Shown piece by piece: positions 3,856 to 24,135 of a stretch of DNA of 64,000 nucleotides; the stretch's first letter is position 1, and every line of letters starts with the position of its first letter. The notes under the pieces are model-generated. The model saw only the letters and a list, made by a program, of their open reading frames with translations, was not told where the DNA came from and searched no databases. Origin of the DNA: Methanospirillum hungatei (lineage in GTDB: Archaea; Halobacteriota; Methanomicrobia; Methanomicrobiales; Methanospirillaceae); contig NZ_CP077107.1 of the NCBI RefSeq assembly GCF_019263745.1, forward strand, positions 2,046,001 through 2,110,000, in the 5' to 3' direction. The translations under genes were made by a program, and so were the position numbers.

Positions 3856-5133
3856 ATGCTAGATATACGATTCATTCGCGCTAATCCTGATATCGTGAAA
3901 GCAGATCTCAGGAAAAGAAATGATTTAGATAAAATAACTTGGGTTGATGACCTGATAGCGCAGGATATTCGTCACCGTGAACTTATTGGGCTAACGAATG
4001 AACTGCGTCATAGAAGAAATTCTATCTCCTATGATATTAACCGGGCAAAAAAGGCTGGAGAAGATGCACGTTCACTCATCACCGAAGCAGCAAATCTGCC
4101 AAAACGCATTAAAGAAAATGAAGCTGAAATGGAAGAGATATCAGCAAAAATCCGGAATTATCTGATGCGGCTGCCGAACATCCTTCATGAGAGTGTCCCT
4201 GTTGGAAAAGATGATTCAGCAAATGTTGAAGTAACGAAAGTAGGCACTCCACGAAATTTTGATTTCGACCTGAAAAATCATGGACAGCTTGCAGCAGATA
4301 ATAATTGGGCAGACTTTGAACGGGCAACAAAAACCTCGGGTGCCGGATTTTACTTCCTGAAAGGAAACCTGGTGTTGCTCGATCTCGCTCTTCAGCGCTT
4401 TTCCCTTGATCTTCTGATGGAGAAAGGATACATTCCGGTTATCCCTCCGTACATGATCAACCGAAAATCTTACGAGGAAGTTACAGATCTTGACGATTTT
4501 GAAAAGGTCATGTATAAAATTGAGGATGATGATGCATACCTGATTGCTACCAGCGAACATCCTATGGCTGCAATGTACCAGGATGAAATATTTGAAGAAA
4601 AGGATCTTCCTCTCAAACTTGCTGGACTATCCCCCTGTTTTAGAAGAGAGATTGGATCACATGGATTGGATACCAAAGGTCTTTTCCGCGTCCATCAGTT
4701 CCATAAGGTAGAACAATTTGTTTACTGCCATCCGGATGATTCCTGGACAATACACGAAGAACTCCGGGAGAATGCAGAAGAAATATTCCAAAAACTCGAG
4801 ATACCATATCGTCTGGTAAACATCTGTACTGGAGATATTGGAACTGTTGCAGCGAAAAAATATGACATCGAGGCCTGGATGCCAAGAGAGAATGAATATC
4901 GGGAAGTTGTTTCATGTTCCAACTGTACGACGTATCAAGCAGTCAGGCTGAACATAAAGGTAAGAGATAAGGAAGATTTTGAGTCCAAACAATATGTTCA
5001 TACTCTCAACTCGACAGCAATTGCTACATCTCGGGCAATGCGGGCAATTCTTGAAAATAATCAGCAGGAAGATGGATCCGTGTTAATACCAAAGGTATTA
5101 CGGCCGTATATCCATAATAAGGAATTTCTCTGA
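3856..5133 (+). CDS. serS: Seryl-tRNA synthetase (canonical type)
   Basis: A class II aminoacyl-tRNA synthetase of 425 residues that charges tRNA-Ser. The N-terminal 110 residues form the long coiled-coil tRNA-binding arm (LRHRRNSISYDINRAKKAG). The catalytic core shows motif 2 (CFRREIGSHGLDTKGLFRVH) and motif 3 (NSTAIATSRAMRAILENNQ). It is the common SerRS, not the zinc-dependent methanogen-type SerRS2. The ATG at 3856 is preceded by AGGTG (3845-3849). A GTG at 3847 would add three residues but overlaps that site. It has its own transcription unit. Confidence 0.95.
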   Translation: MLDIRFIRANPDIVKADLRKRNDLDKITWVDDLIAQDIRHRELIGLTNELRHRRNSISYDINRAKKAGEDARSLITEAANLPKRIKENEAEMEEISAKIRNYLMRLPNILHESVPVGKDDSANVEVTKVGTPRNFDFDLKNHGQLAADNNWADFERATKTSGAGFYFLKGNLVLLDLALQRFSLDLLMEKGYIPVIPPYMINRKSYEEVTDLDDFEKVMYKIEDDDAYLIATSEHPMAAMYQDEIFEEKDLPLKLAGLSPCFRREIGSHGLDTKGLFRVHQFHKVEQFVYCHPDDSWTIHEELRENAEEIFQKLEIPYRLVNICTGDIGTVAAKKYDIEAWMPRENEYREVVSCSNCTTYQAVRLNIKVRDKEDFESKQYVHTLNSTAIATSRAMRAILENNQQEDGSVLIPKVLRPYIHNKEFL

Positions 5134-5163
5134 TACTTGAATGAAATTTTCATAAAATATCCA

Positions 5164-5175
5164 TTTTTATATAGG
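5164..5175 (+). promoter_or_regulatory. TATA box upstream of the 5239 gene
   Basis: TTTTTATATAGG fits an archaeal TATA box and predicts a start near 5196, giving a leader of roughly 40 bases. A T8 run at 5202-5209 lies just inside the predicted transcript. Confidence 0.35.
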
Positions 5176-5238
5176 TATCATGCAGGTTAAACCGGCAGCT
5201 CTTTTTTTTCTTACTTCTAATTCTTTCTGGCCTGCAAT

Positions 5239-6075
5239 ATGAAAATTACAGAAATGCTGGAACTTGAAGAAATCTCTCTCATAGAACCGATGTTTTCTGA
5301 CCTCGTATACCCGGATATGGATGAATTTATGGTGCAGAGACCTGGAACATCTGGAAAAATCCTGGTTGATGAAGATGAAAGACCGGTAATTTTTGCTCAA
5401 AAAGATGAGAATGATGGGTGGATAGGATGTTGCACCCTCCTGAGAGAACCCTCTTTATCTCTCATTGAACATTTTGAGCAGTTTGATTGTGACATGTACC
5501 AGGAAGATAACGAAATTGCCCAAGATGCGATAAGGAATTATTTTAGTACAATTTTATGCAGTTCTGTTCAACCCGGACCAAATGATCTGAATCCTGCCAG
5601 GGTACATAGTATTGAATCATTACTGAAAAAAACCATAGGAACAGATTCACACCAGACCGGTCTTGACTGTTGTTGCGGAACCGGGGTCGGTGCAATGGTT
5701 ATGGAACAATATGGGATGCATCCCCTTGCTTTCGACAATGATGAATCTCTTCTGGTCAGGGGGATGATGGAAAAAAGATTACGACCTGAACGGATTATGT
5801 GGATAGATGGCAGGATGATTTCCCACTATCTTACAAAAAAGGTTTCAATTGCCTGTGGTTTCATGATAGGAGAGATTCATTCATTTAATGCACACATATG
5901 GCAGGAGATAATTTCTGCAACATGCTTGGTTTCTGATAACATCTTATTCACTACCGGAACTGAACCTGAAATAAATCTGATAAAAGAATGGGTTTTAAAT
6001 TCTGGAAAAAAAGCGGAGATATTTGAATCAGATTCTGATCCGATTTATGATAGATGGGTATGTTATTCAGAGTAA
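5239..6075 (+). CDS. Unrecognised protein with a methyltransferase-like glycine loop
   Basis: A 278-residue soluble protein. Near residues 135-150 it has LDCCCGTGVGAMVMEQYG, followed by an acidic strand end (AFDNDESLLVRG). This is the layout of motifs I and II of class I SAM-dependent methyltransferases. No NPPY, DPPY or other catalytic motif IV is visible in the second half (ACGFMIGEIHSFNAHIW), so a substrate cannot be named and the fold may only bind SAM. The N-terminal 100 residues resemble nothing I know. It is monocistronic, between serS and the convergent glnK. It could be a lineage-specific Methanomicrobiales protein. Confidence 0.6.
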   Translation: MKITEMLELEEISLIEPMFSDLVYPDMDEFMVQRPGTSGKILVDEDERPVIFAQKDENDGWIGCCTLLREPSLSLIEHFEQFDCDMYQEDNEIAQDAIRNYFSTILCSSVQPGPNDLNPARVHSIESLLKKTIGTDSHQTGLDCCCGTGVGAMVMEQYGMHPLAFDNDESLLVRGMMEKRLRPERIMWIDGRMISHYLTKKVSIACGFMIGEIHSFNAHIWQEIISATCLVSDNILFTTGTEPEINLIKEWVLNSGKKAEIFESDSDPIYDRWVCYSE

Positions 6076-6512: not shown

Positions 6513-7706
6513 TTATGAGCGGGCCCGTTCTCCATGCTGGGAGATGTCAAGTCCCACATATTCTTCATCTTCTGATACACGCAGTCCGATTGTTTTGTCG
6601 ATGACAAGTGCCAGAATATAGGTCACTACAAAGGCATATGCCGCAGCAATGAGTGCATCTACTGTGTTGATGCCAAACTGGTATACATTACCAGCGAGAA
6701 GACCACTCTTTCCAACACTTGCGAATATTCCAGTTGCGATTGCACCCCACAGACCACCAACACCGTGGATGGCCCATGCATCAAGACTCTCATCAAATCC
6801 TCTCTTAAGGCGCCAAAGCAGAGCACTATAACATATCAGACCTGCAACAGCACCGATAATCAGGGCTGCCGGAACATCAACAAATCCAGCTGCAGGAGTA
6901 ATTCCGACCAACCCTGCAATAGCTCCAGATACCATTCCAACCGAACTTGGTTTACCACGAATGCTGCTTGCAAGAAGCCACGTAAGCGCTCCGGCTGCAG
7001 CGGCAGTGTTTGTTACCATAAAGGCATTTGAAGCCAGACCATCGGCAGCAATTGCACTTCCGGCATTAAATCCGAACCATCCAAACCAGAGTAACGCTGC
7101 ACCGAGCAGAGTCATCGGAATGTTATGAGGTTCCATCGAACTTTCTCCAAAGCCCATCCGCTTTCCAATCACCAGGGCAATTGCCAGAGCACCAAATCCT
7201 GAACTGATATGAACAACTGTTCCTCCTGCAAAGTCCAGAGCTCCAAGGGAAGCTGCCCAGCCACCACCCCAGGCCCAGTGTGCCAGGGGATCATAGACAA
7301 GTGTGGTCCAAAGTAATCCGAACAATACAAATGCTGACAGACGAATCCGTTCAGCTACACCAGATGTCAGGATTGCCAGTGTAAGGGCAGCAAAGACCAG
7401 TTGGAACGCAGCAAACAGGATATCCGGTATAGGAAGATTTGTTGCTTCCATCCCAATCCCAGCCAGTCCAATATAATCAAGGCCACCTATGAATCCTCCA
7501 ATATCAGAGCCAAATGCGAGTGAATATCCGCAAAAGACCCACTGTACACTCACGAGAGCATAACAGAGGAACGCTAACGCCACCATTGAGATGACATTTT
7601 TCCTCCGTACCAAACCTCCATAGAACAGCCCGACCCCCGGAGTCATGAGCATGACCAGGCAGGTAGAGGCAAGTATCCACGCAGTTGCACCACTATCTAG
7701 CGTCAT
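6513..7706 (-). CDS. amtB: Ammonium transporter AmtB
   Basis: A 397-residue Amt/Mep/Rh channel with about eleven hydrophobic membrane segments. It starts [19 protein letters not shown] and contains [11 protein letters not shown] early on. The two pore histidines are recognisable in [15 protein letters not shown] and [14 protein letters not shown]. It conducts ammonium across the cytoplasmic membrane and is gated by GlnK, encoded immediately downstream. Transcription probably begins at a TATA box about 150 bases upstream, which gives a long leader carrying a stable hairpin. Nitrogen-dependent control is expected. Confidence 0.95.
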
Positions 7707-7761
7707 TTTCTAATCACCTGATTGATCACCAGTATTGCTGATCCTGTATCTACCTGATTAG

Positions 7762-7809
7762 AGGCTTTCGCCTGATAAATTATCCACAGGCGACTGATAC
7801 TTTCAGCCT
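7762..7809 (-). promoter_or_regulatory. Hairpin in the amtB leader
   Basis: A perfect 7-bp inverted repeat, TCGCCTG (7768-7774) with CAGGCGA (7787-7793), encloses a 12-base AT-rich loop. An outer pair AGGCT/AGCCT (7762-7766 with 7805-7809) could extend it. It lies 60-100 bases upstream of amtB and inside the predicted transcript. It could be an RNA control element or an operator. I did not find the GGAA-N6-TTCC operator of NrpR. Confidence 0.45.
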
Positions 7810-7854
7810 TCCCCAGTGGGTCTCATCCACATGGGTAGTAAGAAGTTATCTTCT

Positions 7855-7870
7855 ACCATATATAAAATTA
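7855..7870 (-). promoter_or_regulatory. TATA-box promoter of amtB-glnK
   Basis: On the minus strand the sequence reads TAATTTTATATATGGT, a strong archaeal TATA box. It predicts a start near 7836 and a leader of about 130 bases. Confidence 0.45.
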
Positions 7871-7956
7871 ACTATAGTGCGAAAAATAACCGACAACTCA
7901 ATAAAGAATAACTATGATATTAAAAATTAAAATTCCTAAAAAATCAAATTATAATA

Positions 7957-10059
7957 TTATTTTCGCTTTACCCTTCTTCCCCGGCGCTTTTTCTTTTTCT
8001 TGGAAGTATCGTCTTCCAGATTATTTTTATGCTTTTTATCTTTGGCTGCTTCTTCATCAGTTGCGCACTCGAGATCGGCCAGAATATCCAGAGGATCTTT
8101 CATATCATTTACCAGCCGGATGATGCGTGATAACCTCTCAACACCAATGAAATGCTCAGCCATCACTCGTGCAAGGGGCGTGAGACGGATATCTCCATTC
8201 TCCTTATAGACAAAATTTTTGTCAAGCAAAAGTTCTTCAACAGGTTCAGATTCACCAACCAGGTTTCCCTCAATTTTATCTATTGCACTCTGACTGCCTT
8301 TCGAGATAACCGCATTAGCTACATAGAGCTCAGAACTCTGTTCCAGAGTGTATTGAGGAGCGACTTCACCCATTTCCCCTTTCAAAAGACCCATTGCAAC
8401 TTCTTCTTCAGTAAGTCGGGACCCCCTTATATAACTGGCTCCGGGCTCTGCAAGAAGTACAACCTTTCCAAGGTCATGAAAATCAGGTCTTCCGGCTCGA
8501 CCTGACATCTGCTGAAATTCCTGAACGGTAAGCCATTCTATCCCCATCGCCAAGGAATCAAAAATTACCTGGGATGCTGGAAAATCCACACCCGCTGCAA
8601 GTGCTGCAGTTGTAACGACGGCACGAAGTTGTCCTTTTTCGAACTTTTCTTCAACCAGACGTCGTTCTGACTGAGTAAGACCGGCATGATATGGCGCAAC
8701 ACCATCACCAATCTTCTCAGCAATAATATGACACCGGGCCCGGGAATTGGTGAATATTATAGTCTGTCCATGGTAGCCCTTATCAGATATTCGATTATAC
8801 TCTTCTGCAACTAAGGTCCGTTCGGTTGGAAGCTTCTGTTCTCGTTCAGAAAAGATCAGATAGCGTTCGAGAGTTACAGGACGATCATCATACCTGACAA
8901 GTTTAGAATTTAACTTGCCTGCAAGTAATTTCGGATGTCCAATCGTCGCGCTCAGATACAAGAACTGAGCTTTTGGTGAAGAATATTTCATGCGGGCTAT
9001 TAAACCATCGACCCGGTGACCACGGTCGCGATCCTCAAGCATCTGCACTTCATCGATAACAACCGTCCCAACATTGGTAAAGGACTCGCCGAGGCGCATG
9101 AGATGATCCACACCCTCATATGTAGCAACAATAATTCCACCATCCCGGTTCCTGTTGGCAGCTCTCCGGTTTTCCTTAACAGCTATGCGACTTGTACCGG
9201 TAATAATAGATACATCGGTTAAATGCCCGTATTTTTGAGAGAAACGTTCATATTTTTGATATGCAAGGGCAACCAGAGGGACCAGGAAAAGAACGCGACT
9301 TCGTCTTTCCAAATAATTTTTTAGACCGGCCATCTCACCGATGAATGTCTTACCACTCGCGGTTGCAGAAACAACAAGCAGGTCTTTTCCATATAAGAGT
9401 CCGGCTTCTACAGCCAGTTGTTGAACTGGCATAAGTGATTCAACACCACAGGCAGTCACAAACTCATGGGGAAATGGTAGTTCCTCAATCCTACTGGTCT
9501 GCACTACAGGGTGAGCTTCAAGGCGGTCATACATTGTATGTCCAACCGTTAGCCGGTCTGGTTCAATCGTCGCTAAAACTCTGTCAACACTTCGGTACTT
9601 TTCTAAAAGTTCGTCTAAATGAGAGAGTGCAGATCGGCCAAGACGGCCCATGTGAACCAGTTCTCTACGAAGCTCTTTCCTCGCACAGTCCATACAAATC
9701 TGCTCATTTTCCCCAAATCCTACAGTATTTTTTTTATCAAGTTCCGTTATCCGGTCATCCATCAGACAAAATCTGCATAATGAGACAAAGGCAAATGAAA
9801 TCTGAAGATCCTGCAGGAATGACTCAAATGGTTTATCTCGTCCAGTCAGGTAAACCCGAGCCCGTCGTAAATGGGTAATGAGATCCTTGCTGGGAGTGTT
9901 GCGATACCCACCACTTTTTGTGTGCCTGATCCGGTACTTTACTGGTCTGATCCCTTTTGGGGTATCAACAAGTTCAAGCATCCCGGTAATCCGGATGTGA
10001 TGAGTGTCAATATATAAAATCCGGTAATATTTTTTTGTCGGCTGAATTATCGCCTTCAT
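7957..10059 (-). CDS. Ski2-like DEAD/DEAH-box helicase with N-terminal zinc-finger domain (DUF5814-like)
   Basis: A 700-residue superfamily 2 helicase. The first 200 residues form an archaeal-specific domain with two CxxC pairs (C95/C98 and C122/C125), likely zinc binding. Then come Walker A SATASGKT (231-238), motif II DEVQ (336-339), SAT near 378 and motif VI QMSGRAGRP near 510. The C-terminus is a lysine/arginine tail (KKKKKRRGRRVKRK). The fold suggests 3'-5' nucleic acid unwinding, but the substrate is unknown. The start ATG overlaps the stop of the preceding HTH gene by 4 bases, making it the third gene of an operon with two putative regulators. Confidence 0.8.
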   Translation of the reverse strand: MKAIIQPTKKYYRILYIDTHHIRITGMLELVDTPKGIRPVKYRIRHTKSGGYRNTPSKDLITHLRRARVYLTGRDKPFESFLQDLQISFAFVSLCRFCLMDDRITELDKKNTVGFGENEQICMDCARKELRRELVHMGRLGRSALSHLDELLEKYRSVDRVLATIEPDRLTVGHTMYDRLEAHPVVQTSRIEELPFPHEFVTACGVESLMPVQQLAVEAGLLYGKDLLVVSATASGKTFIGEMAGLKNYLERRSRVLFLVPLVALAYQKYERFSQKYGHLTDVSIITGTSRIAVKENRRAANRNRDGGIIVATYEGVDHLMRLGESFTNVGTVVIDEVQMLEDRDRGHRVDGLIARMKYSSPKAQFLYLSATIGHPKLLAGKLNSKLVRYDDRPVTLERYLIFSEREQKLPTERTLVAEEYNRISDKGYHGQTIIFTNSRARCHIIAEKIGDGVAPYHAGLTQSERRLVEEKFEKGQLRAVVTTAALAAGVDFPASQVIFDSLAMGIEWLTVQEFQQMSGRAGRPDFHDLGKVVLLAEPGASYIRGSRLTEEEVAMGLLKGEMGEVAPQYTLEQSSELYVANAVISKGSQSAIDKIEGNLVGESEPVEELLLDKNFVYKENGDIRLTPLARVMAEHFIGVERLSRIIRLVNDMKDPLDILADLECATDEEAAKDKKHKNNLEDDTSKKKKKRRGRRVKRK

Positions 10060-11415: not shown

Positions 11416-13641
11416 ATGCCAAAACAGGGCTATATAATAATACGGGGAATTGTTCAGGGCGTAGGATTTCGACCATTTGTATATGCCCGGGCGATTGCGC
11501 ATAGCATTCATGGATCAGTCTGGAACACCGGATCAGAGGTCCGCATAAATGCATGGGGGGATAAGTTTGACGATTTCATAGAAGACTTGAAACGAGGAAC
11601 CCCCCTTTCCATTATCGATTCAATAGAAATTCATCCATTGTCTGGATCACCCCCAGACTCATTTTCTATTCTAAAGTCGCATGACGGCATACGAACAGGT
11701 CTCATTCCACCGGATATTGCCACCTGCCCGGAGTGTGTGCATGATATCTTTACTCAAGGAGGGAGATATGAAGGATATTTTGCAACATCATGTGTAAATT
11801 GCGGACCAAGATATTCCATCATCAAAACTCTTCCATATGACCGGGAAAGAACAGCAATGGATATTTTTCCACCCTGTCTGGAATGCTCAGATGAATACAG
11901 TGATCCCTCCTGTAGACGACATCATGCACAGACAATCGCCTGCGAATTATGTGGACCGGTTCTTATGCTACATACAGGTGATCGTCAGGTAATCAATGTA
12001 AGTAATCCAATCCAAAGGACTGCAGAACTCCTTGAACAGGGTAATATTGTTGCTATCAGGGGAATTGGGGGATTCCATATCGCCTGTATTGGAGAGAGCT
12101 CAAAAGAGTTAAAAAACCGGCTCGGAAGAACAGAACAACCCTTTGCCATAATGGCCCGGAAAGAGTGGATAAAAAAGGAAACGATGATCTCACATGAAGA
12201 GGAAGAAATGCTTCAAAGTGAGATCTCACCAATAGTTATCCTTGATAAAAAAAACTCACGAGCGCATGACCATATCAGCAGCCTCCATACCCTTGGCTGC
12301 ATGGTTCCCTATACCGGTCTTCACCATCTTTTATTCAGCCATCTAAAGGCTCCATATCTCATCATGACCAGTGCCAATGCACCAGGTTACCCCATGATAA
12401 CTACTCTGAATGATGCATTCGTAAAGTTAACCGGTATTGTTGATTATTACCTGACTCACACCCGCGATATTGTTAACCGGTGTGATGATTCAGTAATCAG
12501 AAATGGATACATTATACGATTGTCACGTGGATTTGCACCCAAAAGAACTAAGATTTTTCTTGGGGAAAAAGCAATACTCGGGACTGGTCCTGAACTTAAT
12601 TCAACGGTGACTCTGTATACACATGGGTTTTGTATTACTTCTCCTCATATTGGAAATGTCAGAAATCCTGGAACATATGGATATTTGAAAGAGACCATTG
12701 CATGTCTTCGGGATCTTATGCAACCTGATATTTCCATAATAGCACATGATCTGCATCCTCAGTTCCTCTCAACCAGGTATGCAAAAGAACTTAGTGAGGT
12801 AACTGATGCTGTTTTAATTCCTGTTCAACATCATCAGGCACATATTGCAGCAACCTGTCAGGAAGAATGTATCGGAATAGCGATTGATGGTGTTGGGTAT
12901 GGATCAGACGGAACTATCTGGGGCGGCGAGATCTTTGAAGGAGCTGCCCCAGAATACAATCGTGTCGGACATTTAATGCCGGTACTTATGCCTGGAGGGG
13001 ATCTTGCGACAACCTGGCCGGAGAGGATGCTATATGGTATTCTCCCGGATGAAAAAACCAAAGAATTGTTGTTAACACGAACATGGACTGAGCAGGATCT
13101 CTCAATTCTTGAAAAACAAGTCTCAAGAAGGTTTAATACAGCAATTACAACCAGCACCGGAAGAGTCCTCGATGCAGCAGCTGCTCTTCTTGGTATCTGT
13201 AGAAAAAAGACATATGACGGAGAACCTGCAATGAAACTAGAATCTGCTGCTTTTGGATCTTCTCCTGATACATGGGAAATTCCGTTAACCAGAATCGGTG
13301 AAGCTCAGGTACTTGACACACAGAGCCTTCTGAAAAAAGCAAGGGACTTATATTTACAAAATCCGTTTGATACCAGTGCAATAAAGCAGATTGCAGCATC
13401 TTTCCAATATAATCTAGCCAGAGGAATCGCAACCATCGCTTGTAATGCCGGGGCAGGTGCAGGAATTAATACCATTGCACTGTCTGGAGGAGTTGCTTAT
13501 AATGAAATGATCCGAAAGACTATTGGGGATGTTGCTCAGCAAAATGGATACACTCTCATAATAAACCATGACATGCCACTGGGTGACGGATGCATATCAT
13601 TCGGCCAATGTGTTTTTGCAGGGAAAAAAGATAATTTATGA
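11416..13641 (+). CDS. hypF: Carbamoyltransferase HypF
   Basis: A 741-residue protein of full family length. An acylphosphatase domain with GIVQGVGFRPFVYAR opens the protein. Two zinc-finger motifs follow (CPECVHDIF...CVNCGPRYS, and CLECSDEYSDPSCRRHHAQT then CELCG), then a YrdC-like domain (about 190-370) and a Kae1-like C-terminal domain with VQHHQAHIAA and AIDGVGYGSDG. HypF makes the carbamoyl group that HypE converts to the cyanide ligands of [NiFe]-hydrogenases. No other hyp gene adjoins it, but hypB lies at 36.4 kb. Its stop overlaps the stop of the convergent surface-protein gene by 6 bases. Confidence 0.95.
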   Translation: MPKQGYIIIRGIVQGVGFRPFVYARAIAHSIHGSVWNTGSEVRINAWGDKFDDFIEDLKRGTPLSIIDSIEIHPLSGSPPDSFSILKSHDGIRTGLIPPDIATCPECVHDIFTQGGRYEGYFATSCVNCGPRYSIIKTLPYDRERTAMDIFPPCLECSDEYSDPSCRRHHAQTIACELCGPVLMLHTGDRQVINVSNPIQRTAELLEQGNIVAIRGIGGFHIACIGESSKELKNRLGRTEQPFAIMARKEWIKKETMISHEEEEMLQSEISPIVILDKKNSRAHDHISSLHTLGCMVPYTGLHHLLFSHLKAPYLIMTSANAPGYPMITTLNDAFVKLTGIVDYYLTHTRDIVNRCDDSVIRNGYIIRLSRGFAPKRTKIFLGEKAILGTGPELNSTVTLYTHGFCITSPHIGNVRNPGTYGYLKETIACLRDLMQPDISIIAHDLHPQFLSTRYAKELSEVTDAVLIPVQHHQAHIAATCQEECIGIAIDGVGYGSDGTIWGGEIFEGAAPEYNRVGHLMPVLMPGGDLATTWPERMLYGILPDEKTKELLLTRTWTEQDLSILEKQVSRRFNTAITTSTGRVLDAAAALLGICRKKTYDGEPAMKLESAAFGSSPDTWEIPLTRIGEAQVLDTQSLLKKARDLYLQNPFDTSAIKQIAASFQYNLARGIATIACNAGAGAGINTIALSGGVAYNEMIRKTIGDVAQQNGYTLIINHDMPLGDGCISFGQCVFAGKKDNL

Positions 13642-14745
13642 GGTTGCTTTCAGCATAACCTTTGGAATAAGCTTCATCTCATTCGGGCGTATCGTTACAG
13701 TTACCGTCTTTTTCTGATACCCCTCTTTCTGGTATGTAAGTGAACGTGAGCCTGCAGGAACGATTAATGTTGCCGGGGTAGTCCCAAGATATACATCACC
13801 CATGTACACTTCTGCTCCTGTAGGTTGTGAAGTTACCATGGCAAATCCAGCAGGGCCTGTCGGGTAATCCCCTACAATCCTGATAATTTCAGGTTTGCGT
13901 TCAACTGAAGAGTAATTATCACTAATTACTTCAAGAGTGACAGTATACCGCCCGATTCCTCCATACACATGGCTCGGGTTCTGGATAGTTGACATTGTTC
14001 CATCACCAAAGTCCCATCTCCATTTTTTCGGACTTCCGGTGGAATGATCAGTGAAGTTCACTGTCAGAGGAGGGGTTCCAGTCATTGGCATTGCGGTGAA
14101 TGCTGCAACAAGGGTTTCTGTTACTTTGGGTTCAGGAGTTGGTTCTACGGTCGGTGTTTGTGTAGGCTGTGTTGTAGGGATTTCAGTTGGAATAACTGTC
14201 GTTGGAACAGCCTCTGGTTCTTTTGTAGGTTCTACGGTAGGTGATATCGTTGGCGACACCGTGGGAGATGTAGATCCAACCTTAATGTGTGGACTATCTA
14301 CAGTAACCGATATAGGATTACCTGAATCATCTGTGAGTTCAGTTATTTGCACCTGAACATCTGCTTCTCCATCTGTTAGCCCCTTTATTCCTAGAGTAGC
14401 AAGGATGATATTTGAGGCTCCGGATTTAATCTGGTCAACCAAATCCACTGCCACAATATTCACTGACGAGCTAGGTAATTTAGATGCCGAATTCATGCTG
14501 AAACTAGCCGGAAAATTAACAGAGATTATTTCAGCATTAGATCCAGGATTTATCGAGATTTCAAGCTGGTATCCCGCTATTCCGGATGGGGCCTGATCCA
14601 GCATAATATCCATGGTTCCAGATACACCTGACGAAACAAGATTCAAATCAGTTCCAGATATTGTTGCCCCATTCACTGCAGATCCTATGAAAAGGATCAG
14701 GCATAGTACAGTGATGATTACAGATTTTTTTGTCATATCATTCAC
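13636..14745 (-). CDS. Secreted cohesin-like / PKD / PEGA protein
   Basis: A 369-residue exported protein. A signal peptide (SVIITVLCLILFIGSAVNG) is followed by a cohesin-like domain (about 25-152: GIAGYQLEISINPG..., then LATLGIKGLTDGEADVQVQI and ITELTDDSGNPI). A Pro/Thr linker comes next (155-210), then a PKD domain (213-293, with WRWDFGDGTMS) and one PEGA domain (300-369). There is no C-terminal membrane helix or dockerin, so attachment must be by domain contacts. It is third in a same-strand series after a dockerin-bearing giant and a paralogous protein (65-base gap). The cohesin assignment rests on pattern and length. A generic cell-surface adhesin is the alternative. Confidence 0.7.
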   Translation of the reverse strand: MNDMTKKSVIITVLCLILFIGSAVNGATISGTDLNLVSSGVSGTMDIMLDQAPSGIAGYQLEISINPGSNAEIISVNFPASFSMNSASKLPSSSVNIVAVDLVDQIKSGASNIILATLGIKGLTDGEADVQVQITELTDDSGNPISVTVDSPHIKVGSTSPTVSPTISPTVEPTKEPEAVPTTVIPTEIPTTQPTQTPTVEPTPEPKVTETLVAAFTAMPMTGTPPLTVNFTDHSTGSPKKWRWDFGDGTMSTIQNPSHVYGGIGRYTVTLEVISDNYSSVERKPEIIRIVGDYPTGPAGFAMVTSQPTGAEVYMGDVYLGTTPATLIVPAGSRSLTYQKEGYQKKTVTVTIRPNEMKLIPKVMLKATS

Positions 14746-14810
14746 CTGTCCTGACCATCTGACATGATGGTATTACCACATCATAAAAAAAATGGATGGG
14801 TTTTCTCTGC

Positions 14811-16211
14811 TCAGGGATACTGAACATATTCAACCGTCCTGTTCAATGGGAAGTATGGCTCTTCAAAGTGATATGTCTGAATCACTGCAAGACCATTCTT
14901 TATCTCAAGGGTATCATTCCAAGGTTCATAACCGGCTTTTTCCAATGTCAGATTGTGTGTGCCCACTGCAAGGTTCATAATCATGATATCGGTTTTTCCA
15001 ACCATTGTTCCATTAATCCGGACATTAACAAGCTCCGGATATGAGACAATATATGCTGCACCTGTTTGTGGTGGATCTGCAGATAATTTCCCAATTTCTG
15101 CCAGATGTGGCATCATCTCAAATCCAGATATAAAGGTTGGAAGGACATTTTCAAGTATCCTTATTGGCGATACAACATCGTAATACCCTTCTTTATGCAA
15201 CCGGAGCTGATAATCACGTGTTGAGAGATTGGAGAGTTCTACCGGAGTAAGACCCTGATATGCATTATTAAGATAAACCTCTGCTCCGTCAGGAACAGAA
15301 AAGATAGTAACATTGTTTTTTGCACCTCTTGTTGGAAGATGCATCGGTTTTACAGATATGAACCCCGCTTTTTGTGTCGAATTCGTGTACACACTGTTAG
15401 AAGCGGTGAGAGAAACGGTGTATAAACCGGGGATCCGATAGATGTGCTGTGGGTTTTGTAAAGGTGACGTATTATCACTTGAACCATCTCCAAAGTCCCA
15501 TAAAAATTTCGTTGGGTAGCCGGTTGAATTATCAGTAAAGAATACTGTCATCGGTGCTGATCCTTCCTGAAGCTGAGCTTTAAAACCTGCAACAACTGTT
15601 GGAACTGGTGTAGGGGTTACTGTCGGAGTAATTTCCACAGTAGGTACAGTGTTATCAGTGATCTCCGGGGTTACTACAGGAGTAGGAACCGGAGTAGAAG
15701 AGGTTTGAGGAGTTTGAACAGGTAATGGGCTGGAATTCTTACTTCCGACCTTGACAGATACCGGTGCAATTTCAACAGCTATCGGACTTCCGGTATCATC
15801 GGTAATTTCTGCTATCGCCAAGCTCATAGAGGTGGTTCCTTCAGATAGCCCCTCAATACTCAGCTTACAGATTTCAGTTTTTCCAGCACCTGCTTCGACT
15901 TTCATGTTAAGATCAACCGCAGATACCAGAACCTTTTCCCCGGGAGTCCCCTCAATAACTTTAATTGGAGCCCATTCAGGCATTGTTACTGCTGAAACAC
16001 GGGCAATCCCTGTTGGTTCAAAGGAGGTGTTGAATTTATATCCTGATATTCCAGCAGGGGCCGTATCAATAGTGATGGGGAGATCTACTTTCTGTCCAAC
16101 TGTACTGATATGGATATCCTCAAGGGAGATCTTCACAGCACTTCCTGCTCCACACATGAACAGGAGAACCATACACATGGTCAGGAAACTTGTAATGATT
16201 GATTTTTTCAT
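14811..16211 (-). CDS. Secreted cohesin-like / PKD / double PEGA protein
   Basis: A 466-residue paralogue of the next gene downstream. Its signal peptide reads SIITSFLTMCMVLLFMCGAG. A cohesin-like domain spans about 24-153 (GISGYKFNTSFEPTG, ICKLSIEGLSEGTTSMSLAI, ITDDTGSPI). A Pro/Thr linker (155-205), PKD domain (206-290, FLWDFGDGSSDN) and two PEGA domains (about 298-360 and 385-450) follow. No transmembrane anchor is seen. It starts 17 bases behind the dockerin-bearing gene, so translation from the same mRNA is likely. The shared N-terminal domain in two tandem genes suggests duplication. Confidence 0.7.
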   Translation of the reverse strand: MKKSIITSFLTMCMVLLFMCGAGSAVKISLEDIHISTVGQKVDLPITIDTAPAGISGYKFNTSFEPTGIARVSAVTMPEWAPIKVIEGTPGEKVLVSAVDLNMKVEAGAGKTEICKLSIEGLSEGTTSMSLAIAEITDDTGSPIAVEIAPVSVKVGSKNSSPLPVQTPQTSSTPVPTPVVTPEITDNTVPTVEITPTVTPTPVPTVVAGFKAQLQEGSAPMTVFFTDNSTGYPTKFLWDFGDGSSDNTSPLQNPQHIYRIPGLYTVSLTASNSVYTNSTQKAGFISVKPMHLPTRGAKNNVTIFSVPDGAEVYLNNAYQGLTPVELSNLSTRDYQLRLHKEGYYDVVSPIRILENVLPTFISGFEMMPHLAEIGKLSADPPQTGAAYIVSYPELVNVRINGTMVGKTDIMIMNLAVGTHNLTLEKAGYEPWNDTLEIKNGLAVIQTYHFEEPYFPLNRTVEYVQYP

Positions 16212-16228
16212 AAGATCACCAATAATGA

Positions 16229-19200
16229 TTACCAGATTAGGTTGTAGTATTTGACAATATCATCAGGATCAATTACACCATTTCGATTATAGTCAAACGG
16301 TGCAGGAGTTAATCCATCTAAATGCCCATGAGCATAGGCATTAAAGAACACTACAACATCCTTTGTGTTCCGTTCACCATTGCCGTCAAAGTCATCGAGC
16401 AAACCATCATGAACTAATAACGGCCACAAATCTTTCGGCTGATTCTGATATCCTGGGAGAGCCGGAACTGCTGATGTTGTAATAGTTGCATCAATTCCAC
16501 TAATTACCATCGATGAAGATTCGTACCATATCTGGGGTTTGTGTTTGTCAGTTTTGTTAAACCTTAAGACATCTGAACCAGGAGATGTTCCAAGTAGACT
16601 GATATTTCCTAAAGAAATATCACGTGATCCGGCAGGCCAACTCCAGGTTTTGTTCATACCAGTAATTGTCATAGATCTGAACGAATCAGAACTGGTATAA
16701 CTTGAATCTGAAACCCAGGTCGGAGGGAGATACCAGTTCTTAATTTTAGCGTGATCTACCGAATCAAGATCAATTCTTAATTTAAATGAATGTAAACCGA
16801 AATCTGCTTTTTTGAGAAGTATATTCAATTGCCTGTCATTTTGAGATCCGTTAATGAGGCTTACTGAACTTGGAACAAATACCAGATCACTTGTGTTTGT
16901 TGCTGAGTTTATAACGATTTGTTTGGATGTCCAGGCACCTGCATCATATTTATTCCATCCAGTGAGCACAACCGGGAAGGTGCTACTTGAATTGTAAATA
17001 TGCTTCACAACTGATGAGCCATTTGCAGTCTTCGTATCTCCAAAATTCCATTCCCAATCAATCAAATCATCAGGACTGGTATCAGTGAAAGTAAATTCCT
17101 GCCCAACCACTCCCGGAGGGGATGGACTTATACTAAAACTCACTGTTAATGGGTTGTACACCCCAACATGATCTTCATAAACCCGATAGCCATTTTTATA
17201 CGTCGTGTTCGAAATTGCTACCATCGGAGAATAATCTCTGACTGTTGTATAGTTATGTGAGATATATGTCCAGAGATTATTTTTTGATCCAGCAGGACGT
17301 GTTTTTGTTGATTTAGTTCCATCACCAAAATCCCACTCAATGCTGTCTATCAAGGTTCCATCTCCAGTATCTGCGAGAAATGTCACATTCAGCTTGGGTG
17401 TTCCATTTACTGGGTTTTGAGAGTTTGGATATGTATTATTTCCGAAAAGACAAATCGGAGTCATATTACCATTAACGGCAATATATTTTTTACTTGAAGT
17501 ATGTTCATTCCCACAAGGAGATGTAACAGTAAGATATGCTGGATAGAGTCCAGGCTTCTCATAGATGTGATAAGGATTCGATTCGTGGCTATTTGGTGTA
17601 TTATCTCCAAATACCCATGTATATGCACCTACGGTACCTTTTGACATATCTGTAAAGTTTACTCGGAGTGGGGCGATGCCGGTTTGTTTATCAGCAGAAA
17701 AGCCTGCAGTAACATTTCCACTGATAACAACATACCCTGGCTTTTGAACGGTGCTGGATCCGGCGATATTCGATACGGTCATTGTGATAGTATAGACCCC
17801 TGCTCGATTGAATCTATGAGTGACATCTGCTTGAGTTGCATTATCTGTATTATCTCCAAAATTCCACTGCCATGCTGTTGGTACTCCACACGTTACATCA
17901 GATGTTGAGAGATCTTCAAAAGACACATCTTGCGGTGCACAGAAAGCCAATCCATCCCGCTGTGTTGTATTCTGGAAATCTCCACATGGAGGCGCCAGGA
18001 CACGGATTTGCTTCGAACCATGCTGTATGTAAGAATCACAACATGTCCCAGTGGTTGCCGTAAGATTTACAGTATACGTTCCTTGTTCGTAGAATGTATG
18101 CCTGATCGCTCGGGAAGAACTCGTCTGGTTTTCTGTTCCATCATCAAACTCCCATTTGTACTGGGTAGCAGTAAAATTATCAGATATGGCATTAAAAGTG
18201 ATTTCCCGGTTAATTGGAACATCAATAATCCCATTCGGATTCGTTTTGTTACTATATCCGACAAGAGTAAAATTATCACTCATGGAGGGCTGACAAACAG
18301 TGATTCTTTTTGGATCACTCACCATCATGTCGGTGTATGTGTAAATCGTTAATGTGGCATCATACTGCCCCGGACTCGTATAATTATGTTTGAGATTATA
18401 GGCTGGTTGAGTCCCGGCATCATGAGAGGACTGATCACCAAAATGCCAAATTCTATTCACAACATTTCCTGAGCCGATTGTTGTATCATTAAAAGTAACC
18501 GTGAGATTCTTAGTACTTGGATCAACAGGTCCACATAATGTGGATACATTAAACGATGGGCGTATTGAGGGTTGGCCAAACTTCATTACAAAAGCATCAA
18601 AACTGCCCTGATAGTTACCAGTGAAATTTCCTCCAATATATCTTCCTCCCTGGATGGTCTGATTAATCCATTTGTAGACAGGAAATGCGTCGTTTTCACA
18701 GTCATCACCACAAATGAGATTGTTTATTGTCGGAGAACTGGTATAACCAGTCACAAAACTCGTGTTTCCATTTGGTTCAATCGCTACTCCTCTCCCAACC
18801 TCATCGCGATATCCACCAAAGAGGGTAGAAAATTCTGCAGATCTTCCATCCTCTTTTATTATTGTAAGAAATCCATCCTGACCACCAGATGCATATTTAA
18901 TCGGATTGACAAGGCTATCCCGGGGAATGCTGGTAGAACGGCTATATCCAGTAACAAAGGCTCGCCTCTTGTCATCTACCTTTATGTCATATCCCCAGTC
19001 ATCCATGCTGCCACCTAGATAGGTAGAGTAAATCAGGCCCCTTCCATCAGTGCTGAATTTTGTAACATATGCATCCTTTTCAAATGCATCATATTGCCAT
19101 CCCTTCACCGTCTGTAAGGCCATATTGGTAACCGGAAAATCTGTGGAAGCTGTTGCTCCGGTAACATATGCACTTTCTGAAGAATCCACCGTAACTGCTT

Positions 19201-20839
19201 CACCATAATCATAACCGGTAGATCCTCCCAGATATGTGGCATAGACCGGTTGCACTCCAGCCTGGAAATTCAATTTGAAAAGGAAAGCATCCTGCCCACC
19301 CTTTATTGATTTCTGGTATCCAGGAGTTGTAGCTGGAATTAGATTTGTGGAACTGGTTGTTCCGACTATATACGCCATCCCCTTACCGTCAACGGTTATC
19401 CCATTGCCATAATCCTGTCCAGAACCAGATATATATGTAGAATATTCAAGTCTTTTTCCGTCTGGACTTATTTTTACTGCAAATGCATCACCCATGACAG
19501 CATCAGGATTTGGTGCAGTTTGATACGCAGAGGGAGTTGTGGGGAATACCTGTTCCAACTTTTTATAAGGACTGTTTCCGACCGTCTGACCTGTCAGATA
19601 TACAGCATTCAAACTGTCAAGAGCAATATCATTCGCCTGATCAGCAAAGTTACCTCCAATATAATCAGACCACCATATATTCGCTCCATCTGCTCGAATT
19701 TTTATGACAAAAGCATCGTTGGATCCATGAAGCTGGTTCCCGTAGGAGAAAGGAAATACAATGGGGAAATCCTCTGAAAATGTATCTCCAGTTACATACA
19801 TATTTTTAAGAGAGTCAACTTCTATCCCCCTTCCAAAATCAGCTTTTGTACCACCCAGATAGGTAGAAAATGCAATAGTTGCATTTCCGGTAGCAGAATC
19901 AACTGAAATTTTCGTTACAAAAATATCCCGGCTATTATGACAGTATGAACCATTGAATTTCTTAGGAGAAGTAGTTATGAGAGGTTTATATACTGGAAAA
20001 TTACAGGACGATGTGTACCCTGTCACGTATACATCACCATCAGAGTCCCTGGCAATATCCATACCGTAATCTTCGAGAGAACCTCCTAGTAAGGTTGAAT
20101 ATTCAAGATATGGATCTATGACAAGAGGATATGCAGGATCATAATCTCCTAAAGCGTACCCCACCTCACCATTTTCAAATAATTGGTATGATGATTCTAC
20201 CTGAACAGTGGTTCCATTTATCTTCTGATAAGAGTACGGTGCCCGCTCAGTCAGATTACCAAAAGATGTAGACACCTGGAGTGAACCATCATCAGTAATT
20301 GATAGGCCATCAGATCCCTGGTACACCAACTTGATGATTGAGGGATCCACCTCTTTATTTACAATGAATTCTCGTTTAAGAACACCTTGTTTTCCAGAAT
20401 ATGTAAGATTAATTCCTGGAAGGATGTTCACATACCGGATTCCTCCATACCAGGGAACGTATTTCTGCCAATCGGTCTCATTTTGACCGATAAGAAAGTT
20501 TGCATACCCCTCAAGCTGATCAAATGCTTCAACAGAAACATTACTGTCCGTTCCGGCAACGGTAACGATTATCGGAGAGGAGACTGCTTGATCACATTCT
20601 TCACAATCTTCTATCGGTCCATTCACCAAAAGAGAATCATGGGTAAAATCAAAAGAAAATTCAGCAGATTTTACCTGGTAGAGAATATCCTCATGTGCCT
20701 GCCCGGCATTTATTATAAACTGCACAGGATGAGCAGAAATATCAGGATTTACCCCGTCCTGAGTATCTGCCATCCCTGGATAACAACAGAGTATACATAA
20801 GAGCGCAGCAAGCACTCCTTTAGTAATATTCCGGTTCAT
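16229..20839 (-). CDS. Giant secreted SBBP-propeller / PKD / cohesin-like protein ending in a dockerin
   Basis: A 1536-residue exported protein. Order: signal peptide (1-25); an N-terminal domain found before SBBP repeats (30-240); seven SBBP repeats with YSTYLGG...YVTGYTSS signatures (about 242-755), probably a beta-propeller; six PKD domains (about 763-1305, e.g. WQWNFGDNTDN, IEWDFGDGTKS); a cohesin-like domain (about 1316-1455); and a dockerin (1475-1536). The two dockerin loops are DFDGNGERNTKD (1483-1494) and DYNRNGVIDPDD (1516-1527), with calcium ligands at positions 1, 3, 5, 9 and 12. Dockerins bind cohesins, and the next two genes encode cohesin-like domains. AGGATGA precedes the ATG. 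No catalytic domain is visible. Confidence 0.8.
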   Translation of the reverse strand: MNRNITKGVLAALLCILCCYPGMADTQDGVNPDISAHPVQFIINAGQAHEDILYQVKSAEFSFDFTHDSLLVNGPIEDCEECDQAVSSPIIVTVAGTDSNVSVEAFDQLEGYANFLIGQNETDWQKYVPWYGGIRYVNILPGINLTYSGKQGVLKREFIVNKEVDPSIIKLVYQGSDGLSITDDGSLQVSTSFGNLTERAPYSYQKINGTTVQVESSYQLFENGEVGYALGDYDPAYPLVIDPYLEYSTLLGGSLEDYGMDIARDSDGDVYVTGYTSSCNFPVYKPLITTSPKKFNGSYCHNSRDIFVTKISVDSATGNATIAFSTYLGGTKADFGRGIEVDSLKNMYVTGDTFSEDFPIVFPFSYGNQLHGSNDAFVIKIRADGANIWWSDYIGGNFADQANDIALDSLNAVYLTGQTVGNSPYKKLEQVFPTTPSAYQTAPNPDAVMGDAFAVKISPDGKRLEYSTYISGSGQDYGNGITVDGKGMAYIVGTTSSTNLIPATTPGYQKSIKGGQDAFLFKLNFQAGVQPVYATYLGGSTGYDYGEAVTVDSSESAYVTGATASTDFPVTNMALQTVKGWQYDAFEKDAYVTKFSTDGRGLIYSTYLGGSMDDWGYDIKVDDKRRAFVTGYSRSTSIPRDSLVNPIKYASGGQDGFLTIIKEDGRSAEFSTLFGGYRDEVGRGVAIEPNGNTSFVTGYTSSPTINNLICGDDCENDAFPVYKWINQTIQGGRYIGGNFTGNYQGSFDAFVMKFGQPSIRPSFNVSTLCGPVDPSTKNLTVTFNDTTIGSGNVVNRIWHFGDQSSHDAGTQPAYNLKHNYTSPGQYDATLTIYTYTDMMVSDPKRITVCQPSMSDNFTLVGYSNKTNPNGIIDVPINREITFNAISDNFTATQYKWEFDDGTENQTSSSRAIRHTFYEQGTYTVNLTATTGTCCDSYIQHGSKQIRVLAPPCGDFQNTTQRDGLAFCAPQDVSFEDLSTSDVTCGVPTAWQWNFGDNTDNATQADVTHRFNRAGVYTITMTVSNIAGSSTVQKPGYVVISGNVTAGFSADKQTGIAPLRVNFTDMSKGTVGAYTWVFGDNTPNSHESNPYHIYEKPGLYPAYLTVTSPCGNEHTSSKKYIAVNGNMTPICLFGNNTYPNSQNPVNGTPKLNVTFLADTGDGTLIDSIEWDFGDGTKSTKTRPAGSKNNLWTYISHNYTTVRDYSPMVAISNTTYKNGYRVYEDHVGVYNPLTVSFSISPSPPGVVGQEFTFTDTSPDDLIDWEWNFGDTKTANGSSVVKHIYNSSSTFPVVLTGWNKYDAGAWTSKQIVINSATNTSDLVFVPSSVSLINGSQNDRQLNILLKKADFGLHSFKLRIDLDSVDHAKIKNWYLPPTWVSDSSYTSSDSFRSMTITGMNKTWSWPAGSRDISLGNISLLGTSPGSDVLRFNKTDKHKPQIWYESSSMVISGIDATITTSAVPALPGYQNQPKDLWPLLVHDGLLDDFDGNGERNTKDVVVFFNAYAHGHLDGLTPAPFDYNRNGVIDPDDIVKYYNLIW
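16232..16395 (-). other. Dockerin-coding segment
   Basis: This part of the giant gene encodes two 12-residue calcium loops about 21 residues apart, the duplicated F-hand layout of dockerins. It is the final element before the stop codon. Confidence 0.75.
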
Positions 20840-21154: not shown

Positions 21155-22690
21155 TTATTGAGTCTCATCAGATAAATTAGATGATTTATCATCTTCTTCA
21201 TCAGATGTGATGACTTCCCGTTTCATGGATGGGAAAAGAATGACTTCCTTAATTGAGGTATTTCCGGTTATGAGCATAACTAACCGATCAATTCCAATTC
21301 CTACTCCACCTGTTGGTGGCATCCCATACCCAAGTGCATTTACAAAGTCATAATCATGCATCTGTGCTTCTTCATCACCAAGGCGCCTTTTCTCTTCCTG
21401 GGCCTCAAATCTCTGAACCTGATCAAGAGGATCATTCAATTCAGAGAATCCATTTGCAAGTTCCATTCCGGCGATAAACAATTCAAACCGCTCAACAAAT
21501 CCTTCTTTTTCCCTATGACATTTGGCAAGTGGTGAATTTTCAACAGGAAAATCGGTAATGAAGGTCGGTTGGATAAGTTTTTCTTCAACAAGAGACTCAA
21601 AGAAGAGAACAAGCATCTCTCTTTGTGAATGGACATCTTCGACGCCCTCAACACCTTTCTCATTCCCTATTTTTTTGAGAACATCTACGTCATGAGCAAA
21701 TATATCAACTCCGCCAATTGTCCTGACGGCATCTTCCATACTCATAACTCTCCACGGAGCAGCATATGAGATAGAATTATCCTCAAAAATTACTTCAGAA
21801 CCACCCGTGATATCCTTGACAATAGTGCTGATGACTGACTCTGTCAGTTTCATCATATCTGAGTAATCAGCATATGCCTGGTATATTTCAACCATTGAAA
21901 ATTCAGGGTTATGACTGGTATCAATGTCCTCATTCCGGAAATTCTTTGCAACCTCAAATACCTTCTCAAAGCCACCAACGACCAGTCTTTTTAAATATAA
22001 TTCAGGGGCAATACGAAGGTAGAGTTTTTGTCCAAGGAAATTATGGAAAGTGGTGAACGGGCGAGCATTTGCCCCACCATAGAGTGGCTGCAAAGTAGGT
22101 GTTTCAAACTCAAGAAATCCATTTCCGGTAAGGTAATTCCGTAAGAGAGAAATGATCCTGCTTCTGGTTCTGAATGTTTCACGACTCTCTTCATTCACTA
22201 TGAGATCCAGATATCGCTGCCTGTACCTCTTTTCAAGATTGGTAAGGCCATGGAATTTTTCAGGCAGGGAGCAGAGTGTTTTTGTGAGTAAGATCAGATC
22301 ATCAACAAAAATGGATATTTCTCCTACTTTCGTCTTAAAAATCCTCCCAGTGACTCCAATTATATCACCTCTTTCTATACAGGCCTTAAATGTCTGAAAT
22401 TTTCCTTCCGGAAGGGCATCCTTGCGAATATATAATTGAATTCTTCCGGTTTCATCGCGAAGATCTGCAAAAAAGGTCTTCCCATGATCCCGTACCCCAT
22501 ATAGTCTTCCTGCTGTTGTAACCACTTCTACCGAGGGGTCATGACCTGCCTCACAAAATTCTGACCGCACACCTACTATATTGTGGGAACGTCTAAACTC
22601 ATGAGGATACAACGGGATACCCGCCTCTATGAGCTGGTTACGTTTTGCAAGTCTCTGATCATCAAACTGAATAGATGGATTGTCCTGCAT
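21155..22690 (-). CDS. lysS: Lysyl-tRNA synthetase, class II
   Basis: A 511-residue class IIb synthetase that charges tRNA-Lys. An N-terminal OB-fold anticodon-binding domain (about 55-150) precedes the catalytic core, with motif 2 in VAKNFRNEDIDTSHNPEFSM and motif 3 in GVGIGIDRLVMLITG. Many archaea use an unrelated class I LysRS. This bacterial-type enzyme points to transfer in the lineage, though some methanogens keep both. Residues 490-511 form an acidic, low-complexity tail. A TATA box at 22787-22798 suggests its own promoter and a leader of about 75 bases. Confidence 0.95.
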   Translation of the reverse strand: MQDNPSIQFDDQRLAKRNQLIEAGIPLYPHEFRRSHNIVGVRSEFCEAGHDPSVEVVTTAGRLYGVRDHGKTFFADLRDETGRIQLYIRKDALPEGKFQTFKACIERGDIIGVTGRIFKTKVGEISIFVDDLILLTKTLCSLPEKFHGLTNLEKRYRQRYLDLIVNEESRETFRTRSRIISLLRNYLTGNGFLEFETPTLQPLYGGANARPFTTFHNFLGQKLYLRIAPELYLKRLVVGGFEKVFEVAKNFRNEDIDTSHNPEFSMVEIYQAYADYSDMMKLTESVISTIVKDITGGSEVIFEDNSISYAAPWRVMSMEDAVRTIGGVDIFAHDVDVLKKIGNEKGVEGVEDVHSQREMLVLFFESLVEEKLIQPTFITDFPVENSPLAKCHREKEGFVERFELFIAGMELANGFSELNDPLDQVQRFEAQEEKRRLGDEEAQMHDYDFVNALGYGMPPTGGVGIGIDRLVMLITGNTSIKEVILFPSMKREVITSDEEDDKSSNLSDETQ

Positions 22691-22818: not shown

Positions 22819-24135
22819 TCAATCCTCTTCGATTTTTCTAGAAAAGATAAGAAGAGCAGCGACCAGGACCATAATGATAACAGGAACAGCCGTGGCAGGA
22901 GTTTCTTCAGGTTTTTCAGCCAGTGGATTCAATATAGTATTTATCTGAAGAACCTGTCCGGGGATAAGCTCCACTTCTGATGAATATTCCTGATAACCGG
23001 CTAGAATGAACCGATATGTGTGTTTACCTGAGCAGACAGAATCAACTGTGGCAGGAGTTACCCCGACAAATTTTCCATCTACATATATATCGGCTCCAGC
23101 AGGTTCTGTGTTCAGGATGAGTTTTCCACAGTCCTGAGGCATCGGACTTGGGTTAAGCTGGGCAGATACCGGAGTTACCTCACCGGCTCTCACCTCCACT
23201 GTTGTAGAGAAATCCTCATAATTACGGGTACTTATATAGACAGTATGGGAACCTGGAGGGATACCTGTTAATTCGAGTGGACGACCCATTTCAGTAGTAC
23301 CCCTGAACTGATCATTCAGAAATACTGATGCTCCAGGTGGATCAGAGGTAATAACCAATGCACCTCCGGATATTTTTGTAACCGGATTGAGTTTCTTATC
23401 AATGATGGTCACCTGCCGGTTCGCAACAACCGCCCATTCCTCGTAATCATCATATCCGGCCCGGGTTATTAAAACTCTACGTTTTCCTGGAGGAACATTC
23501 CCAATGACCGTGTTTGTTGTACCTGAATATACTCCATCGACATAGACCGATGCTCCACCTGGAACCGTGCTGATCTGAAGTGACCCAGCTCCAGATCGCA
23601 CAGTCATGTTCGCGTGAAGTCTTGTTACCTGCCCAGGAATAACATCCATATTAACAACATAAGGCTCAAAACCAGAGAGGAAAAGTGAAACCAGATGGGT
23701 GCCAGTGGTAATGTCACGATATGTCCAGGGAGTCATCTGTCCCATACCATTATCGATCGTGACTAAAGCTCCGGAGGGAGAGGATGTCACCTCAAGAGTA
23801 CCAAATGGAGAAACTGGAATGAGGGCTGCTTTAATAGGAACAACCTGTCCGGCTGCAGGTGTCCCGGCGATGGTCTGCTCCCATATCTCATATCCCTGCA
23901 TCATGATCCGGATTTGCGTTCCATCACTTTGATTTCGTGCTGGTATCAGGACCGGAGTTTCACCCATGAATTGAGAGCCGATAAAAACATCTCCACCTTC
24001 AGGCACAGATGTTACTTCAAAGTATCCTGTTTTTTCATCTGCAATACCCGGACTACAGACACACCACAGACCTGCTGTCAGGAAAAGGATGAGTATTCCA
24101 AAAAACCGTACTGATGGATGCTCCATATTAAACAT
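22819..24135 (-). CDS. Membrane-anchored protein of five PEGA domains
   Basis: A 438-residue exported protein. A signal sequence (FFGILILFLTAGLWCVCSPG) is followed by five tandem PEGA domains, each opening with a G-x-(L/F)-x-(V/I)-T-S-x-P-x-G-A motif (GTLEVTSSPSGALVTIDNG, GSLQISTVPGGASVYVDG and so on). A C-terminal transmembrane helix (VPVIIMVLVAALLIF) ends in a short charged tail (SRKIEED). PEGA domains are surface beta-sandwich modules common in Methanomicrobia, of unknown function. The architecture suggests a stalk-like spacer held in the membrane. It lies upstream of lysS on the same strand and divergent from the subtilase-like gene. Confidence 0.8.
   Translation of the reverse strand: MFNMEHPSVRFFGILILFLTAGLWCVCSPGIADEKTGYFEVTSVPEGGDVFIGSQFMGETPVLIPARNQSDGTQIRIMMQGYEIWEQTIAGTPAAGQVVPIKAALIPVSPFGTLEVTSSPSGALVTIDNGMGQMTPWTYRDITTGTHLVSLFLSGFEPYVVNMDVIPGQVTRLHANMTVRSGAGSLQISTVPGGASVYVDGVYSGTTNTVIGNVPPGKRRVLITRAGYDDYEEWAVVANRQVTIIDKKLNPVTKISGGALVITSDPPGASVFLNDQFRGTTEMGRPLELTGIPPGSHTVYISTRNYEDFSTTVEVRAGEVTPVSAQLNPSPMPQDCGKLILNTEPAGADIYVDGKFVGVTPATVDSVCSGKHTYRFILAGYQEYSSEVELIPGQVLQINTILNPLAEKPEETPATAVPVIIMVLVAALLIFSRKIEED

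Follow-up and report, generated by a model that had tools for sequence, protein, structure and literature searches.

Cohesins and dockerins are already known in archaea (PMC5244752; PMC9012536), and their function in these organisms has been a standing question since their discovery in A. fulgidus. There, ORF2375 supplies the dockerin and ORF2376 the cohesin of the pair singled out from published array data as the strongest and most specific (PMC9705933), a neighboring pair that, like the archaeal domains themselves, belongs to prior knowledge. According to the PLoS Biol 2022 study, ANME archaea have extracellular dockerin and cohesin proteins, including scaffoldin-like proteins and substrate-binding proteins with dockerins (PMC9012536). 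The locus examined here combines a dockerin gene with two cohesin genes.

Organization of the locus

The window, i.e., the whole stretch of 64,000 nucleotides analyzed here, belongs to a genome of the sheathed methanogen Methanospirillum hungatei, 3.39 Mb in size and assembled as a single contig, and contains three genes, C, B, and A, arranged in tandem on the minus strand. The open reading frame (ORF) coordinates agree with those of an earlier annotation made from the letters alone (hereafter, the sequence-only reading), with gaps of 17 bases between C and B and 65 bases between B and A. The true start of A is probably the ATG at 14736, located behind an AGGTGA, which would give a 366-aa product and a gap of 74 bases to B. 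The features considered in the following are listed below.

16229 to 20839, minus strand: gene C, exported 1536-aa protein; DUF7948, SBBP beta-propeller, six PKD domains, cohesin-like module, dockerin
20765 to 20839, minus strand: probable signal peptide of C (residues 1-25; hydrophobic N terminus)
20111 to 20719, minus strand: DUF7948 of C (residues 41-243; Pfam PF25778, E 1.5e-51)
18575 to 20104, minus strand: SBBP beta-propeller repeats of C (residues about 246-755, end approximate; Pfam PF06739, 7 stretches)
16910 to 18562, minus strand: six PKD domains of C (residues about 760-1310, ends approximate; Pfam PF18911, 6 stretches)
16484 to 16885, minus strand: divergent cohesin-like module of C (residues about 1319-1452; profile and model)
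16232 to 16462, minus strand: dockerin of C with two calcium-type loops (residues about 1460-1536; profile and loops in the sequence)
14811 to 16211, minus strand: gene B, exported 466-aa protein; cohesin, Thr/Pro linker, PKD, two PEGA domains
15747 to 16130, minus strand: cohesin of B (residues about 28-155; AlphaFold2, Foldseek, VIA-align)
15390 to 15602, minus strand: PKD of B (residues 204-274; Pfam)
14937 to 15314, minus strand: PEGA domains of B (residues about 300-425; Pfam PF08308, E 8.9e-26, two stretches)
13636 to 14745, minus strand: gene A, exported 369-aa (probably 366-aa) paralogue of B; cohesin, linker, PKD, PEGA
14278 to 14661, minus strand: cohesin of A (residues about 29-156; profile and identity to the cohesin of B)
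13915 to 14070, minus strand: PKD of A (Pfam)
13678 to 13839, minus strand: PEGA of A (Pfam)

Upstream of C, at a distance of 315 bases, is a lysS-like class II aminoacyl-tRNA synthetase gene (21155 to 22690, minus strand). On the other side, a plus-strand gene (11416 to 13641), which we call hypF-like from its sequence without a family search, runs toward the end of A. Past the tRNA synthetase gene, a 438-aa gene on the strand of the operon (window positions 22819 to 24135) encodes five PEGA domains. The hydrophobic N termini of C, B, and A, called by eye as signal peptides, fit the earlier claim that all three proteins are exported. Neither a glycosidase nor a carbohydrate-binding module was matched by Pfam in A, B, or C, and a C-terminal membrane segment is absent from all three proteins, in line with the lack of a glycosidase and of an anchor proposed from the sequence.

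Cohesin and dockerin modules

The N-terminal module of B is a cohesin fold according to its AlphaFold2 model (pLDDT 87.3, pTM 0.80), whose best Foldseek match in the PDB is 2XDH, a non-cellulosomal cohesin of A. fulgidus (E 1.2e-10). All 50 of the 50 matches listed are cohesins, and VIA-align gave Z scores of up to 14.4; this is the structure prediction that the sequence-only reading had proposed as a check, and its outcome supports the cohesin-like N terminus assigned to B. As for A, a cohesin profile containing no Methanospirillum sequence matched it with an E value of 4.7e-34 (4e-32 for B), and the two cohesins are 32% identical, in agreement with the same assignment. Downstream of the cohesins, the expected succession of PKD and PEGA was confirmed by Pfam, with one PKD and two PEGA domains in B and one of each in A.

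The Pfam cohesin model gave only a weak match on the whole of B (E 0.022), and PF00963 on its isolated module reached an E value of 0.0018, both below the cut-off; nothing was matched by this model in A or C. Of the 38 diverse sequences that represent this archaeal cohesin family in alignment A3, it recognized 1 at an E value of 0.01, and it follows that counts based on Pfam would be too low. Furthermore, a search of PDB sequences with the 38-member profile matched no cohesin, so that the cohesin assignment rests on predicted structure.

In C, we confirmed the two-loop dockerin that had been read at the end of the 1536-residue protein. Its loops, DFDGNGERNTKD and DYNRNGVIDPDD, are the two duplicated calcium loops of the DxNxDxxxxxxD type by which a type I dockerin is recognized, and the region (residues about 1460-1536) matched a dockerin profile from which C orthologues had been left out with an E value of 2.2e-14. 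Pfam reported weak EF-hand matches and no Dockerin_1 on this dockerin, while other dockerins of the same genome pass Dockerin_1. Directly before it lies a cohesin-like module (about 1319-1452) that the sequence-only reading had missed, and which matched the cohesin profile without Methanospirillum sequences (E 5.4e-9) as well as a profile of stand-alone cohesins (E 4e-7). Two motifs conserved in the cohesin family, AVDL and DD.G, have been lost in this module. In the model of residues 1314-1536 (mean pLDDT 70), the best matches of the cohesin part are cohesins, with a confidence below that obtained for B, and the dockerin part, based on 8 sequences, is poorly modeled (pLDDT about 45-65). C thus carries a cohesin-dockerin tandem, and the separation of the three proteins into scaffold and ligand understates the locus, in which the large protein has a cohesin in addition to its dockerin. 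We also considered a bacterial-type X module before the dockerin and rejected it; the insert of 93-96 residues present in some relatives reads as a PKD domain.

Conservation of the operon and of the gene order

The C-B-A order is kept in all seven Methanospirillum genomes read (the window and loci L091, L116, L128, L140, L151, and L165), a count that leaves out G058, an eighth genome of the genus. Within the genus, C orthologues are 49 to 65% identical; in six other genera of the family they are about 32 to 36% identical over most of their length. In those six genera, a gene for a protein with DUF7948, SBBP, PKD, cohesin, and dockerin lies upstream of a cohesin-PEGA gene, and the partners of C orthologues scanned outside Methanospirillum are cohesin-PEGA proteins with 2 to 11 PEGA domains. 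A second cohesin partner like A occurs, among the loci scanned, in Methanospirillum only. The cohesin profile is present in 46 of the 61 genomes of the family, and the search of genome contigs for related loci yielded only five.

The same order of genes recurs well beyond C orthologues. Among loci fetched for containing a cohesin, a dockerin-bearing gene lies immediately upstream, on the same strand, of at least 60 of 123 stand-alone cohesin genes (33 dockerin and 27 cohesin-dockerin proteins), downstream of 1 of the 123, and upstream of 14 of the 1252 other ORFs used for comparison. Sixty is a minimum, as one or more pairs, such as that at L122, were masked by a short spurious ORF. With 23 of them in Methanospirillum and 37 outside, the independent events are fewer than the counts, and Fisher values overstate independence. 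The placement of scaffold and ligand genes side by side holds as a pairing and turns out to be a recurrent archaeal order rather than a local oddity. A cohesin-dockerin gene followed by a cohesin gene was also found in other families, at loci chosen in part for paired hits.

Three dockerin-then-cohesin pairs occur in the genome carrying the window, C-B-A included. One of the others consists of a subtilase-PKD-dockerin protein followed by a 173-aa cohesin protein (L020:6338-8653; G000, about 3.207 to 3.210 Mb), the second gene beginning without a spacer, in the same frame after the stop, and its product being almost only a signal peptide and a cohesin. The description of the assembly as one without visible enzymes is valid for the locus, but this paralogous pair has a subtilase as the dockerin partner. 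In the remaining pair, a repeat protein with a dockerin precedes a 330-aa cohesin protein; at L019:3799-6386 the two genes overlap by 4 bases, and the C-terminal domain of the cohesin protein has no Pfam match. In pairs other than C-B-A, the proteins on the dockerin side include a subtilase, a papain-like protease with a lectin-like domain, NHL and PD40 propellers, and a beta-helix protein, and such varied cargo indicates a general pair system that is not bound to one kind of cargo.

Some further arrangements were noticed. At L023, two divergent genes (4107-5360 and 6759-8009) encode ABC-transporter substrate-binding proteins with dockerin loops near the N terminus. At L081:6601-11781, a cohesin-PKD-dockerin protein with a molybdopterin-oxidoreductase domain match is followed by a membrane-anchored cohesin protein, and in a more distant genome three cohesin modules share one 770-aa frame, resembling a scaffoldin (G077:C1:382346-383629).

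Distribution of anchors between the partners

Of the stand-alone cohesin proteins whose end is intact, 26 of 110 have a C-terminal membrane segment, which was observed in none of the 88 dockerin proteins (0/43 cohesin-dockerin and 0/45 dockerin proteins). Cohesin partners from beyond the family frequently have a PGF-like tail; one such partner has a PGF-pre-PGF domain (E 2e-53) and another a sub-threshold PGF-CTERM match. Furthermore, all 22 DUF7948 proteins at cohesin loci bear a dockerin (21 also a cohesin) and none ends in a membrane segment, whereas DUF7948 proteins without a dockerin end in one in 6 of 16 untruncated cases, a contrast that is consistent with the dockerin replacing a membrane anchor. 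Methanospirillum DUF7948 proteins without the cohesin-dockerin tandem (L198, L199, L202, L203, and L217) also have no C-terminal membrane segment, unlike several from other genera. Since neither B nor A has a membrane segment or a sorting signal, their anchoring would rest on the PEGA domains, which we infer to hold both proteins at the envelope; this counts against the cassette proposed below.

Possible function of the C-B-A proteins

In our judgment, the operon probably encodes a two-part surface-attachment cassette, in which the cohesin protein acts as the envelope-side receptor and the dockerin protein as the displayed cargo. C would be exported with the C-terminal cohesin-dockerin tandem in place of a membrane anchor, and B and its genus-specific duplicate A would be exported receptors whose N-terminal cohesin may grip the dockerin of C in a calcium-dependent manner. 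The C-terminal PEGA domains of B and A would keep the complex at the cell envelope, and the propeller and PKD stalk of C would face outward, giving C a structural or binding role; an adhesive role of the assembly is possible. Of what was first proposed for this locus, we retain the assignment of cohesins and a dockerin as well as the idea of a non-enzymatic assembly outside the cell, but the picture of scaffold and ligand holds only in part: the small proteins do carry cohesins, yet with one cohesin each they look like envelope-side receptors and not like a multi-cohesin scaffold.

The chief rival, which we regard as unlikely, is a homotypic fiber, in which the dockerin of each C molecule binds the cohesin-like module of the next, forming head-to-tail chains started or capped by B and A; it matches the structural or adhesive assembly first imagined. 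The tandem present on C and its orthologues would suit such chains, and in a mirror-tree analysis given DUF7948 the dockerin of C covaried most with its own cohesin (partial r 0.80, compared to 0.37 for the cohesin of B). However, the adjacent PKD region also reached 0.52, and neighboring C-terminal modules covary as a block, so that linkage explains much of the dockerin covariation and the partner cohesin is not singled out. Moreover, the cohesin of C has diverged at the AVDL and DD.G positions and is missed by Pfam, and in other pairs the dockerin partner often lacks a cohesin of its own. The more specific proposal that, through its tandem, C polymerizes into calcium-dependent surface fibers nucleated by B and A, which would make a non-covalent archaeal filament system, appears somewhat less likely still.

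A similarly low probability is given to a mix-and-match complex, with B and A as general receptors for several dockerin proteins on a minimal cellulosome-like platform without a scaffoldin. The dockerin proteins of the genome do outnumber its cohesin proteins and include two subtilases and two substrate-binding proteins, which together with repeat proteins are the candidate ligands in view, but cognate specificity is favored by the tight gene pairing and by the presence of three distinct pairs in a single genome. That C, B, and A help to build the sheath, S-layer, or end plugs of Methanospirillum seems improbable: even though PKD proteins from sheath preparations have been named as candidate plug proteins (PMC6242892; PMC11641113), the pair of cohesin-dockerin and cohesin-PEGA proteins is also present in six further genera of the family. 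The sheath is therefore an unlikely explanation of the pair, but it could account for the extra gene A. Finally, the divergence from bacterial cohesins and the failure to reach Pfam cut-offs could be taken as signs that the modules are relics and have lost their mutual binding, a reading to which we give hardly any credence in view of the intact calcium loops of C and of the fold and gene order conserved across genera.

For the surface-attachment cassette, the recurrent order and the division of labor between the partners lead to a testable statement, namely, that large exported proteins use these modules instead of a membrane anchor.

Comparison with known cohesin-dockerin systems

The ordered pair as a rule that recurs from genus to genus and in several families, the anchor split, and the C-B-A operon were not found in the literature searched, which did not extend to key reviews, and this is not proof of absence. 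The ANME proteins resemble those of the locus in being archaeal extracellular dockerin and cohesin proteins, but differ in that the sections of PMC9012536 drawn on here do not describe an ordered dockerin-then-cohesin pair or a split of the anchor.

With the clostridial cellulosome, the locus shares the cohesin fold and the duplicated dockerin loops, and the anchoring step, in which a scaffoldin dockerin sits on a cell-bound cohesin, likewise brings a large exported assembly onto a surface receptor. Different from the cellulosome, the locus has one cohesin per partner and lacks a multi-cohesin scaffoldin, a carbohydrate-binding module, and a glycosidase, on which grounds a cellulosome proper was rejected; furthermore, the archaeal anchors are PEGA domains, a membrane segment, or a PGF-type tail.

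The closest counterpart is the A. fulgidus pair, which is archaeal and non-cellulosomal and has its dockerin and cohesin on neighboring ORFs (2375 and 2376, respectively); at our locus, too, a dockerin gene is followed by a cohesin gene without cellulosome enzymes. The structure of that A. fulgidus cohesin, 2XDH, is the one most similar to the module of B, even though sequence kinship is too weak for the PDB profile search. Strong and specific binding is known for the A. fulgidus pair only. Here, the pair is elaborated into a 1536-aa dockerin protein with DUF7948, a propeller, and PKD domains, accompanied by two cohesin-PKD-PEGA partners.
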